Notes under the pieces: model-generated
What the model was told of the DNA's origin: nothing
The model's database searches: none
What the model saw: only the letters and a program-made list of their open reading frames with translations
Shown: piece after piece, positions 37,932 through 41,699 of the stretch
How the letters are laid out: each line of letters opens with the position of its first letter
How positions within the stretch are numbered: position 1 is the stretch's first letter
Made by a program: the position numbers and the translations under genes
Source of the DNA: Vreelandella olivaria
GTDB taxonomy: Bacteria; Pseudomonadota; Gammaproteobacteria; Pseudomonadales; Halomonadaceae
Length of the DNA: 64,000 bases
Assembly: GCF_023507745.1 (NCBI RefSeq)
Contig: NZ_JALPZO010000155.1
Coordinates: forward strand, 1-64,000
Direction of reading: 5' to 3'

Positions 37932-40664
37932 TTAGTTCAACTTACCGCAGCACTGCTTATATTTTTTACCCGAGCCACAGGTGCAAGGGTCGTTACGGCC
38001 CACTTTAGGCCCTCCCCGACGCAGCGGGCGGCCATCTGTACCAGGTGCTTCCACGGCACGCTCGCTGTTCTGAGCGCTCGGATCATCATGGCGGCTTGCA
38101 GCCATCACTTTCTCACGCGCCAGCTCTTCGCGTCGCTTCTGCTCCAGAGCATCCACTTCTTCAGGCTGACGCACCTGAACGTGACTAAGAATACGCGTGA
38201 CATCTGCCTTAATGTTGGTCAGCAGATTCTGGAACAGCTCAAACGACTCGCGCTTGTACTCTTGCTTTGGGTTTTTCTGGGCGTAGCCACGCAGGTGAAT
38301 ACCACGACGCAAATGATCCATCGACTGAAGGTGCTCTTTCCAGCGGGTATCCAGTACCTGCAGCATCACCTGCTTTTCAAAACGATGGATCAGCGTAGCA
38401 CCGGCAGCCTCGATTTTGGCCTCATAGGCTTCACGATGCATTACCTGAAGGCGCTCACGCAGCTTCTCTTCGCTGAAACGCTCATCCTCAGCCGCCCACT
38501 GCACAACAGGTGCTTCCAGGTTGAATTCCGTTTTTAAATGCGACTCCAAGCCAGGTAAATCCCACTGCTCGACCAGGCTTTGGGGTGGTACAAAATCGCT
38601 GATGGCCTCCTCCATTACCTCTTCGCGGATACCCAGCACCGCTCCAGACACCTCTTCAGAAGCGAGAATTTCGTTACGCTGCTCATAGATAACGCGGCGC
38701 TGGTCGTTGGCCACATCATCGTACTCCAGCAGTTGCTTACGAATATCAAAGTTGCGGCCTTCAACTTTTTTCTGCGCCCGCTCCACAGCGTTGGAAACCA
38801 TTTTATGCTCTATCGCTTCGCCACGCTCCAGCCCCAGCGCCTGCATCAAGCGCTTCACCCGGTCTGAGCCAAACAGGCGCATCAAGCTATCTTCCAGGGA
38901 GAGGAAGAACCGGGTCGAACCCGGATCGCCCTGGCGGCCGGCACGTCCACGTAACTGGTTATCGATACGGCGGGACTCATGGCGCTCTGAGCCAATAACA
39001 TGCAAACCACCGGCTTCAAGCACACCATCGTGGCGCTTTTGCCACTCGGCTTTAAGGGCATCAATTTGCTCTTGGGTTGGGTTCTGTAACTTGGCTGCTT
39101 CAGCTTCCCAGTTACCACCCAGCATAATATCGGTACCACGACCAGCCATGTTGGTGGCAATCGTAATCGAACCGGGACGACCTGCCTGGGCAATGATTTC
39201 CGCTTCACTCTGGTGCTGCTTGGCATTCAGTACATTAAATTTCAGACCAGCGTCACGCATCAGTTGAGCAAGATACTCGGATGTTTCAATAGAGGCAGTA
39301 CCTACCAGCACAGGTCGGCCAGCTTCTGTCTCAGCTTTAACGTCTTTAATGATCGCTTCATACTTCTCTTCAGCGCTGAGATACACCAGATCGTTGAGGT
39401 CTTTACGGGCCAGTGGGCGGTTGGTGGGAATAACGATAACATCCAGGCCATAGATTTGACGAAACTCGTAAGCTTCGGTATCGGCGGTGCCTGTCATCCC
39501 CGCCAGTTTGTCATATAAGCGGAAGTAGTTCTGAAACGTCGTTGATGCCAATGTCTGGCTCTCGCGCTGAACCGTCACACCCTCTTTGGCTTCAACGGCC
39601 TGATGAAGCCCTTCAGACCAGCGGCGGCCAGGCATGGTGCGTCCGGTGTGTTCATCAACAATCACCACCTGCCCTTCAGCGACAATATAATCAACGTCCG
39701 GATGATAGAGGTGGCGGGCACGCAGTGCAGAGTGCATATGCTGCAACAGGTTAAGGTTTTGCGCAGCGTAAAGTGAGTCATCTTCGCCAAGCAGCCCCTC
39801 CGCACGCATCAGCTCTTCGACCTTATTGTGGCCTTGTTCGGTCAGTTCAACCTGCTTCTGCTTCTCATCCAGCAGGAAATCGCCCGTCACCGGCGTTTCT
39901 TCATCTTCCGATACTTCTCCCCTCTCCAACTGTTGAGCCAGTCGGTTGACCACATTATAGAGGTCGGTGTTTTCATCAACAGCACCAGAAATAATCAACG
40001 GTGTACGCGCTTCATCAATCAGGATCGAGTCAACTTCATCGACAATGGCGTAATACAGGCCGCGCTGAACCTTATCTTCCAGTGAAAACGCCATATTGTC
40101 GCGCAGGTAGTCAAAACCGAACTCGTTGTTGGTACCGTAGGTAATATCGCACTGGTAAGCATGGCGTTTCTCTTCACCGGTTTGACCGGCAAAAATCACC
40201 CCTATCGTCAGGCCCAAAAACTCATATAGTGGTCGCATCCACTCGGCATCACGACGCGCCAGGTAATCATTGACCGTCACCACATGGACGCCTTTGGCTG
40301 GCAGAGCATTCAGGTATACGGCCAGTGTCGCCACCAGTGTTTTACCTTCACCGGTTTTCATTTCGGCAATACGCCCCCGGTGCAGGGTCATGCCACCAAC
40401 CATCTGCACATCAAAGTGGCGCATTTCCATCACTCGTTTACTCGCCTCACGCACCACAGCAAATGCTTCGGGCAGCAAACTGTCGAGTGTTTCTCCGCTC
40501 TCCAGGCGTTGACGAAACAGTGCTGTTTTCCCCTGCAGCTCGGCATCGCTCAGACCTTCCAGTTCCGGCTCCAGCTTATTGACGCTAAGCACGCTTTTCT
40601 GCATGCGTTTTACTTCGCGGTCGTTCTTGGAACCAACAACTTTACGTAACAAATTATTAATCAT
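37932..40664 (-). CDS. secA: Preprotein translocase ATPase SecA
   Basis: A 910-residue motor that drives unfolded proteins through SecYEG. Walker A is [14 protein letters not shown], the DEAD-like motif [15 protein letters not shown], then the helicase-like [15 protein letters not shown] and [15 protein letters not shown]. The C-terminus has the zinc and SecB-binding tail [19 protein letters not shown]. Length is normal. The Shine-Dalgarno sequence is weak (GGA) and lies in the loop of a predicted hairpin that includes the start codon. The gene upstream, 68 bases away, encodes a small exported protein with a possible arrest motif (see 40733-41104). Confidence 0.98.
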
Positions 40665-40744
40665 GAATTTTCCAAATCATCATGAGCGCCCATACAGGTA
40701 CGCCCTTTTATATAAAGCAAATAAAGCAGTTCTTAGTGTATGAG
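40661..40744 (-). promoter_or_regulatory. Structured secA translation-initiation region
   Basis: In the mRNA, UCAUGA (40685-40680) pairs with UCAUGA (40666-40661), and inside it AUUU pairs with AAAU around a GGA loop. The pairing covers the secA AUG (40664-40662), and the GGA is its only Shine-Dalgarno candidate. Upstream, CUCAUACA (40744-40737, the last codons of the small ORF) can pair over 8 bp with UGUAUGGG (40696-40689). A ribosome halted near codon 116 of that ORF would have its front edge at about 40745, against this helix. The pairings are seen by eye, not computed; their stability is unknown and the first is AU-rich. Confidence 0.45.
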
Positions 40745-41104
40745 TTGCTGAACAGGCGGACCGCGCTGGGTAAGCACATCTTTCGCAGCAACCTGCCGAT
40801 GCATTACCTGCGGTAAAAAGCGAAGAAGGGAAGGTAAAGGCGTCAGCTGGCGTGTATTACGACGTGACCAATAACGTAATGCGCGGCGTTTTTTCGCTAT
40901 CCATTGGGACTGCGCGCGCAAGATTGCAGGCACCCAGAAACAGACGTTAACGCTACGCTCGCTACCGCGAAAGGCATCTGAAGGGTGTAGACTAGCAGGT
41001 AGCAAGCAACTTACCAGAAGGCCAGCAAGCCACCAGCGCGCTAAGCCATGACGGCGTTGGCGTCGTGGCGAAGCGGTCATAACATCTGGTGGCGGTGACG
41101 ACAT
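40733..41104 (-). CDS. Small exported protein upstream of secA; candidate SecM-type arrest peptide
   Basis: A 123-residue protein I do not recognise by sequence. The N-terminus has a basic region (RRQRRHGLAR), a hydrophobic core (WWLAGLLVSCLLPASL, residues 24-39) and a possible signal peptidase site after HPSDA. The middle is basic. The C-terminus reads DVLTQRGPPVQQLIH: R114-G115-P116-P117 stands six residues before the stop. SecM of E. coli has the same layout (signal peptide, gene directly upstream of secA, RAGP four residues before the end), and ApdA/ApdP arrest peptides use RAPG or RAPP. AGGAG lies 12 bases before the ATG, rather far. It is divergent from dciA. Function is inference; a plain hypothetical protein remains possible. 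Confidence 0.65.
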   Translation of the reverse strand: MSSPPPDVMTASPRRQRRHGLARWWLAGLLVSCLLPASLHPSDAFRGSERSVNVCFWVPAILRAQSQWIAKKRRALRYWSRRNTRQLTPLPSLLRFLPQVMHRQVAAKDVLTQRGPPVQQLIH

Positions 41105-41225
41105 GCTGTGGACTGGCTCCTGGGCGTGTTAGGCTCTTCTGGGTTGGCCCACCTCTAGGCTATAGCTGTTCACCTATTGGGGACCGCCACACTATGTTGA
41201 TTAAGGCACTTTGGAAATCAAGCGT

Positions 41226-41699
41226 ATGAGTATAAAGGTTAAGCGATCTCACGCACAGCCCATCACCCAACTGCTATCCAAGTCTGGTGATATTGGGTAC
41301 CTGATGCGCCAATCTCGCTTAATTGACCAGGCACAACGGCATTTGCGTGCCCACTTGCCTGAAGAAATGCGTGAACATATCTTCGTAGGCGGCTTCCGCG
41401 ATGGCCGGTTAACACTCATTAGCGGTCAAGCCAGCTGGTTAACCTGGCTGCGCTACGAACAGAGCCACTTACTCACCCTGCTTCACCAGTTGCCAGGGTT
41501 GGAAGGTGTCAGCGCGTTTACACTGAAGGTTCGTCCAGTTCGTCCTGTCGAAGCACCTAAGCGCTATACTCGAACGCTCTCCAATGATGCAGGCAAAACG
41601 TTAGCCGAGTGCGCCGCAGATACCGATAACCCGGCTCTTAAAGATGCGTTACAGCGCCTGGCCTCCCACGCCAGCAGCCACTCGGACCCCAAGGCATAA
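41226..41699 (+). CDS. dciA: DciA-family replicative helicase loader (DUF721)
   Basis: A 157-residue protein of the DUF721 family, whose members load DnaB in bacteria that lack DnaC. The N-terminal domain carries the typical LLSKSGDIGYLMRQSRLIDQ and LTLISGQASWLTWLRYEQ. The C-terminal 40 residues look disordered. ATG 41226 is preferred to an in-frame TTG at 41211. It lies between lpxC and secA, its usual place in Pseudomonas-type genomes. A hairpin follows. Confidence 0.87.
   Translation: MSIKVKRSHAQPITQLLSKSGDIGYLMRQSRLIDQAQRHLRAHLPEEMREHIFVGGFRDGRLTLISGQASWLTWLRYEQSHLLTLLHQLPGLEGVSAFTLKVRPVRPVEAPKRYTRTLSNDAGKTLAECAADTDNPALKDALQRLASHASSHSDPKA

Follow-up and report, generated by a model that had tools for sequence, protein, structure and literature searches.

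A conserved small ORF upstream of secA in Halomonadaceae probably encodes an R-(A/G)-P-P arrest peptide that monitors Sec export

Arrest peptides encoded upstream of sec genes were surveyed by Fujiwara et al. (2024; PMC10987492), who screened 30,175 genomes and named the members found upstream of secA by GTDB order, such as uA_RQH_Pseudomonadales. An R109GPP member of this group is reported there to arrest both Escherichia coli and Bacillus subtilis ribosomes in vitro, with a fraction above 0.9, and in the RQH-family toeprints described in the same report the P site is occupied by the third motif residue. Structures of RAPP peptides are described as showing an A-site proline that is held unable to attack (PMC10951233). 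Across 10 major bacterial groups, RGPP is reported as the tetrapeptide with the strongest under-representation (PMC12992588), and a RAPP-like motif is described as insufficient for stalling by itself (PMC7897499, PMC10987492). Halomonas is absent by name from the main text of PMC10987492, and a search of the available literature found no paper joining Halomonas with an arrest peptide or with SecM arrest.

In this study, a small ORF directly upstream of secA was analysed in a 64,000-nucleotide stretch of Vreelandella olivaria DNA, hereafter the window. The original prediction described a 123-codon minus-strand ORF that ends in RGPP plus six residues and lies 68 bases before secA on the same strand. 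Its coordinates (40733-41104) and strand were confirmed base by base, and re-reading of the sequence placed the ATG start at 41104 and the TAA stop at 40733-40735. RGPP occupies residues 114-117 (40754-40765) and is followed by six residues and TAA, from which 68 nt were counted to the secA ATG at 40664. The codons also agreed with those given, namely CCG for P116 (40757-40759) and CCT for P117 (40754-40756). The divergent neighbour of the candidate arrest-peptide ORF (arrest ORF) is dciA (41211-41699, plus strand; Pfam). No sigma-70 promoter or terminator was found between the genes within 40600-41350, and Shine-Dalgarno-like sequences precede the chosen arrest-ORF start in most of the listed relatives. 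The features of the locus are as follows.

41117..41121, minus strand: AGGAG, 12 nt 5' of the arrest-ORF ATG, as its Shine-Dalgarno (sequence)
40733..41104, minus strand: candidate arrest-peptide ORF, 123 codons plus stop, intact in 57/59 genus loci
40970..41038, minus strand: residues 23-45, RWWLAGLLVSCLLPASLHPSDAF, comprising the core of the signal sequence with the invariant Cys33 and the probable cleavage region; conservation 0.87 in the genus
40880..40969, minus strand: residues 46-75, a conserved middle segment that is hydrophobic at first and basic further on; genus conservation 0.77
40793..40879, minus strand: variable Arg-rich spacer, residues 76-104; conservation 0.38
40754..40792, minus strand: putative arrest module, residues 105-117, VAAKDVLTQRGPP, with the predicted stall site; conservation 0.86
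40736..40753, minus strand: unconserved residues 118-123 after the motif; conservation 0.20
40665..40732, minus strand: leader between the arrest ORF and secA, holding GGGCGCTC (40684-40691) and a weak secA Shine-Dalgarno TTTGGA (40671-40676); no masking by the arrest codons predicted
37932..40664, minus strand: secA, the presumed regulated gene (Pfam and NCBIfam)

The window protein matched no Pfam or NCBIfam family above the cut-off, and a profile built from 42 diverse members matched no PDB sequence. Assignment to a known family was tried with these 42 members and rejected, given that only scattered single-member matches were obtained (best E-value 0.004). R[AG]PP was absent from all stop-to-stop frames of at least 150 residues in the window.

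The arrest ORF closely resembles the uA_RQH_Pseudomonadales peptides. Both are small ORFs (<300 aa) upstream of secA on the same strand, and both carry RGPP close to their C-terminal end (R109 in the published member, R114 here). Both also begin with an N-terminal localisation signal; judged here from sequence, it consists of a basic region followed by WWLAGLLVSCLLPASL, is conserved, and corresponds to the basic-hydrophobic signal sequence first proposed. The RAPP-like C-terminal motif that defines the RQH peptides is conserved among 129 distinct sequences, with RGPP in 126 and RAPP in 3, as had been predicted for RGPP. The spacer from the signal to the motif, which exceeds 30 residues in the RQH definition, measures 64-71 residues here from the estimated signal end. 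The hosts of the RQH group belong to the GTDB order Pseudomonadales, and the named relatives found here are Halomonadaceae. The predicted placement of P116 in the P site likewise agrees with the published toeprints of RQH-family arrest peptides (PMC10987492).

SecM shares with the arrest ORF the position before secA, a signal sequence, an Arg-containing stall motif near the stop and a presumed role. The claim that overall likeness to SecM is absent was upheld by an hhalign probability of 0.1% against one sequence, E. coli SecM; with this value, and with no Pfam or NCBIfam SecM match among the 42 members, homology to SecM was rejected. The SecM motif FxxxxWIxxxxGIRAGP is replaced here by DVLTQRGPP, which agrees with it only in the Arg, the small residue in the middle and a Pro, and the F, W, I and G positions fall on M101, A106, A107, T112 and Q113. 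By analogy, the arrest ORF is expected to work like SecM though it is no homologue. ApdA and ApdP share the C-terminal R-A/G-P-P, which takes the form RAPP in three family members here, and presumably block peptide-bond formation in the same way (PMC10951233); they differ in preceding secDF rather than secA and in belonging to other lineages.

Conservation was assessed in alignment A1 of the 42 diverse members, in which L30, C33, L34, P36, R114, P116 and P117 are invariant (M1 by construction) and W24-L29, L35, L39, P59, R63, D109 and G115 nearly so. Asp is found five residues before the motif Arg in 122/129 sequences, and the motif Arg lies at position 103-123 from the chosen start in the listed relatives. 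The middle of the peptide had been expected to vary, which was true for residues 76-104 but not for residues 46-75, whose mean conservation is 0.77. This middle segment was recognised by pattern in 125/129 sequences; in four members from g8 and g18 it was not recognisable, and the signal, motif and spacing are kept. At the predicted stall, the middle segment would lie approximately 41-70 residues from the P site, which is near or beyond the exit of the ribosomal tunnel. The distance from the motif to the stop was also expected to be conserved; instead, it ranges from 1 to 44 residues in the 129 sequences. Conservation drops directly after the motif from 0.86 to 0.20, which is what a stall at the motif predicts. 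Compared with the three close relatives L002-L004, dN is 0.145-0.152 and dS is 1.3-1.9. Synonymous diversity at conserved four- and six-fold codons is lower over the first 22 residues (0.49) than in the signal, middle and tail (0.63-0.64). The low dN relative to dS and the even synonymous diversity of signal, middle and tail thus indicate that selection acts mainly on the peptide. Cys33 (41006-41008) is invariant in A1 (42/42) and lies within a lipobox-like LV[SG]C. A lipoprotein signal was considered and rejected, because an Arg is located ten residues before the Cys, which we take to be too close for a lipobox pattern, and hydrophobic residues follow the Cys.

The spacer is distinguished by its length and charge. 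Cys33 is separated from the P-site residue by 77-84 residues (median 81) in the 129 sequences, whereas the spacers of the RQH secA and secDF peptides are reported to vary widely for the most part (PMC10987492). The part between the signal and the motif is basic, with a median net charge of +12 (range 2-17), compared with 0 in E. coli SecM. The gap from the arrest-ORF stop to secA has a median of 73 nt and ranges from -4 to 207 nt. The near-constant spacing suggests a possible length ruler. As a length control, dciA was compared in 128/129 sequences (L015 was dropped owing to a broken dciA frame), and the relative length variation |dL|/L of dciA versus the arrest ORF was 0.029 versus 0.025 at 35-50% identity, 0.026 versus 0.017 at 50-70% and 0.017 versus 0.002 at 70-99%. 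The sequence of dciA is the more conserved of the two, and its length is only slightly more variable at matched identity, thereby weakening the case for a strict ruler.

The arrest ORF is widespread in the family. A match was found in 59/61 genomes of the window's genus, and secA was not found either in the two genomes without one (G042 and G046). Among the 59 genus loci, 57 had an intact frame in which RGPP lies 1-13 residues short of the stop, and the frameshifted L040 is the departure from the intactness in relatives on which the original prediction depended. Homology search gave matches in 183/201 Halomonadaceae genomes and 20/24 genera, which is an undercount, as G090 and G104 (g8) were unmatched and an RGPP ORF precedes secA in both (L106 and L108). 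When loci were read directly, an ORF with a signal and R[AG]PP preceded secA in 191 of the 212 family loci with a SecA-like match; these 212 loci represent 201 or fewer distinct genomes, duplicates included. The 21 loci without the ORF comprise 16 from g3, g5, g22 and g24, together with L119 and L120 (distant SecA paralogues), L040, L175 and L071. The set of 129 sequences was obtained by removing duplicates over the last 100 residues, and the Cys pattern cost no sequence; seven loci without a parsed start (L024, L032, L035, L064, L068, L072 and L089) were left out of the start listing and the 92-sequence counts. A scan of named relatives, in which the signal-sequence pattern was required, kept the best 80 of 159 relatives. 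These best 80 belong only to Halomonas, Vreelandella, Billgrantia, Chromohalobacter, Litchfieldella, Onishia and Halovibrio, all Halomonadaceae, and RGPP stands in frame before secA in 79 of them, with L175 as the exception.

Outside the family, 105 of the 126 non-family genomes of the order with a secA match were read, and a signal-bearing ORF ending in R[AG]PP upstream of secA was found in none of the 105. R[AG]PP frames in two non-family loci of the same order (L254 and L264) have no hydrophobic segment. When 293 genomes of the order were searched with a profile, 12 family genomes matched, and four others did so weakly (E 5e-4 to 0.007). Halomonadaceae are placed in GTDB Pseudomonadales (PMC7498684), and no such ORF occurs in the 105 other genomes of the order that were read; the arrest ORFs of Halomonadaceae are therefore probably the published uA_RQH_Pseudomonadales group. 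The kind is thus already published, which makes it well supported yet no new principle. What is new is that the predicted unmasking of secA differs between genera and that the spacer is basic and of near-constant length.

The R[AG]PP ORF is absent before secA in the 16 loci of g3, g5, g22 and g24. A long ORF, presumably of M23-peptidase type as recognised from its sequence, precedes secA in 15 of these 16 loci (L094-L096, L101-L103, L105, L107, L110, L111, L113, L114 and L116-L118), the exception being L115. A replacement sensor in these genera was considered and rejected, with no R[AG]PP ORF there and the M23-like ORF instead. The M23-like ORF in the place of the arrest ORF suggests that the arrest ORF took that place elsewhere.

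Several loci are irregular. The arrest frame of L059 (genome G009) runs 44 residues beyond RGPP and shares 4 nt with the start of secA. The RGPP frame of L071 (genome G126) has no stop and continues in frame into SecA (RGPPAVFAPP...EHAMLNSMLRK), such that read-through beyond the stall would yield a signal-peptide-SecA fusion; L077 of the same genus has a stop seven residues after the motif. L040 is the same locus as L175 (Halomonas olivaria TYRC17, AP019416.1), in which the arrest ORF is frameshifted mid-way and RGPP is kept in another frame. The TYRC17 genome is listed at 86% completeness with 6% contamination, so this frameshift may reflect a sequencing error. RAPP replaces RGPP in L090, L093 and L097, which come from one genome of g19 and two of g7, and the g7 RAPP loci have long gaps to secA of 175 and 188 nt.

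A conserved frame, signal, spacing and arrest module are observed here, together with the position before secA. Judged on these sequence features, the ORF very probably codes for an arrest peptide of the R-(A/G)-P-P kind that monitors Sec export and is predicted to stall the ribosome. The ribosome would make the Sec signal sequence and the basic spacer first and then reach RGPP, where, in the predicted stall, P116 (40757-40759) occupies the P site and P117 (40754-40756) the A site. By analogy with RAPP peptides, the Arg-Gly-Pro chain end would block peptide-bond formation, and, as in SecM and its kin, pulling on the signal sequence by SecA/SecYEG would free the stall. A shortage of export capacity would let the stall persist, and expression of secA, which comes next on this strand, would rise. 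For the sister genera, the prediction is that a stalled ribosome exposes the ribosome-binding site of secA; such unmasking is mostly not predicted in the window's genus, where any effect on secA may take another route.

To evaluate this last step, the free-energy cost of opening the initiation region of secA (-20 to +9) was computed twice, once for the full mRNA and once for only the RNA that remains downstream of a stalled ribosome. The control, E. coli secM-secA, gave 14.3 versus 9.6 kcal/mol (full versus post-stall). For 30 loci from 19 other genera, the means were 10.2 versus 7.6 kcal/mol; the full mRNA was costlier to open in 26/30 loci, by more than 1 kcal/mol in 22/30, and exceeded the synonymous-codon controls in 23/30 (p 1.4e-4, which is optimistic given the related loci). 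The 64 loci of the window's genus gave means of 7.6 versus 6.8 kcal/mol, with the full mRNA costlier in 33/64, by more than 1 kcal/mol in 20/64, and no excess over synonymous controls (29/64; p 0.3, related loci). The window's own mRNA gave 7.5 versus 7.8 kcal/mol, with differences of -0.9 to +0.6 in six other contexts; the stall is thus not predicted to open the secA start region in the window. Release is predicted in L006, L012, L028, L036 and L056 of the same genus.

The Shine-Dalgarno alone was also evaluated over the 94 loci. The full state exceeded the post-stall state in 59/94, only 46/94 were above the synonymous controls (p 0.11, related loci), and the Shine-Dalgarno was more open than in leader shuffles in 71/94. 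Masking of the Shine-Dalgarno only, taken over all 94 loci, was rejected on these counts. Other genera exceeded the synonymous controls in 24/30 loci (p 8e-5, related loci) and the leader shuffles in only 18/30 (p 0.16, related loci). Within the window's genus, 22/64 loci were above the synonymous controls and 5/64 above the leader shuffles, and the secA Shine-Dalgarno was more open than in the shuffles in 59/64. According to these predictions, the arrest codons seem to be selected to mask the secA start in the sister genera, and the window's genus seems to keep its secA Shine-Dalgarno open. A shared RNA structure between the arrest codons and the secA leader in the window's genus was sought with RNAalifold on 30 sequences and rejected, with 10 pairs of which one had changes on both sides. 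Pair probabilities indicated pairing of the motif region with -46..-24 in L002, L006, L008, L012, L028 and L036, and such pairing was not seen in L001 or L004. The original reading is therefore supported in its RGPP motif, its frame, selection on the peptide and the lack of SecM likeness, but for the window mRNA no exposure of the secA ribosome-binding site by the stall is predicted.

The conservation of the signal (0.87) and of the middle segment (0.77), which has no obvious role in stalling, would also fit an ordinary small secreted or membrane peptide in which RGPP serves the mature product rather than translation. Such a peptide is very unlikely, given that RGPP is reported to be avoided in proteomes generally (PMC12992588), is kept here near the ORF end with unconserved residues after it, and belongs to an ORF that stays before secA in the loci read. 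Translational coupling, in which translation of the ORF opens the secA start without any stall, could draw on the median gap of 73 nt, the overlap with secA in L059 and the in-frame entry into SecA in L071; a nearly invariant R[AG]PP and signal sequence would nevertheless be needless for coupling, and the gap varies over the whole range given above, which renders this explanation extremely improbable.

A further possibility accepts the stall and concerns only its consequence, namely that the window's genus controls secA otherwise than by unmasking of the ribosome-binding site, the message being either protected or kept at the membrane so that SecA is made near the translocon. No release is predicted in the window and its nearest relatives, and the arrest module is still conserved in a genus whose Shine-Dalgarno is open relative to leader shuffles. 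This route is conceivable but rather doubtful, because secondary-structure prediction from one leader is uncertain and the five loci of the same genus named above show predicted release. Building on the arrest-peptide reading, we tentatively put forward an unlikely extension for the window's genus: the arrest peptide would be under selection though its stall no longer unmasks the secA ribosome-binding site, acting for example by message protection or membrane-localised synthesis, and the basic spacer of near-constant length (77-84 residues) would leave it a poor Sec substrate, one that is readily starved and signals a drop in capacity at an early stage.

The arrest-peptide reading implies that Halomonas and its relatives probably possess a built-in secretion-capacity gauge on secA. 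The 129 distinct sequences form a natural series for comparing the arrest module, spacer and leader RNA, and the split between genera whose leader is or is not predicted to unmask lets the route from the stall to SecA be tested.
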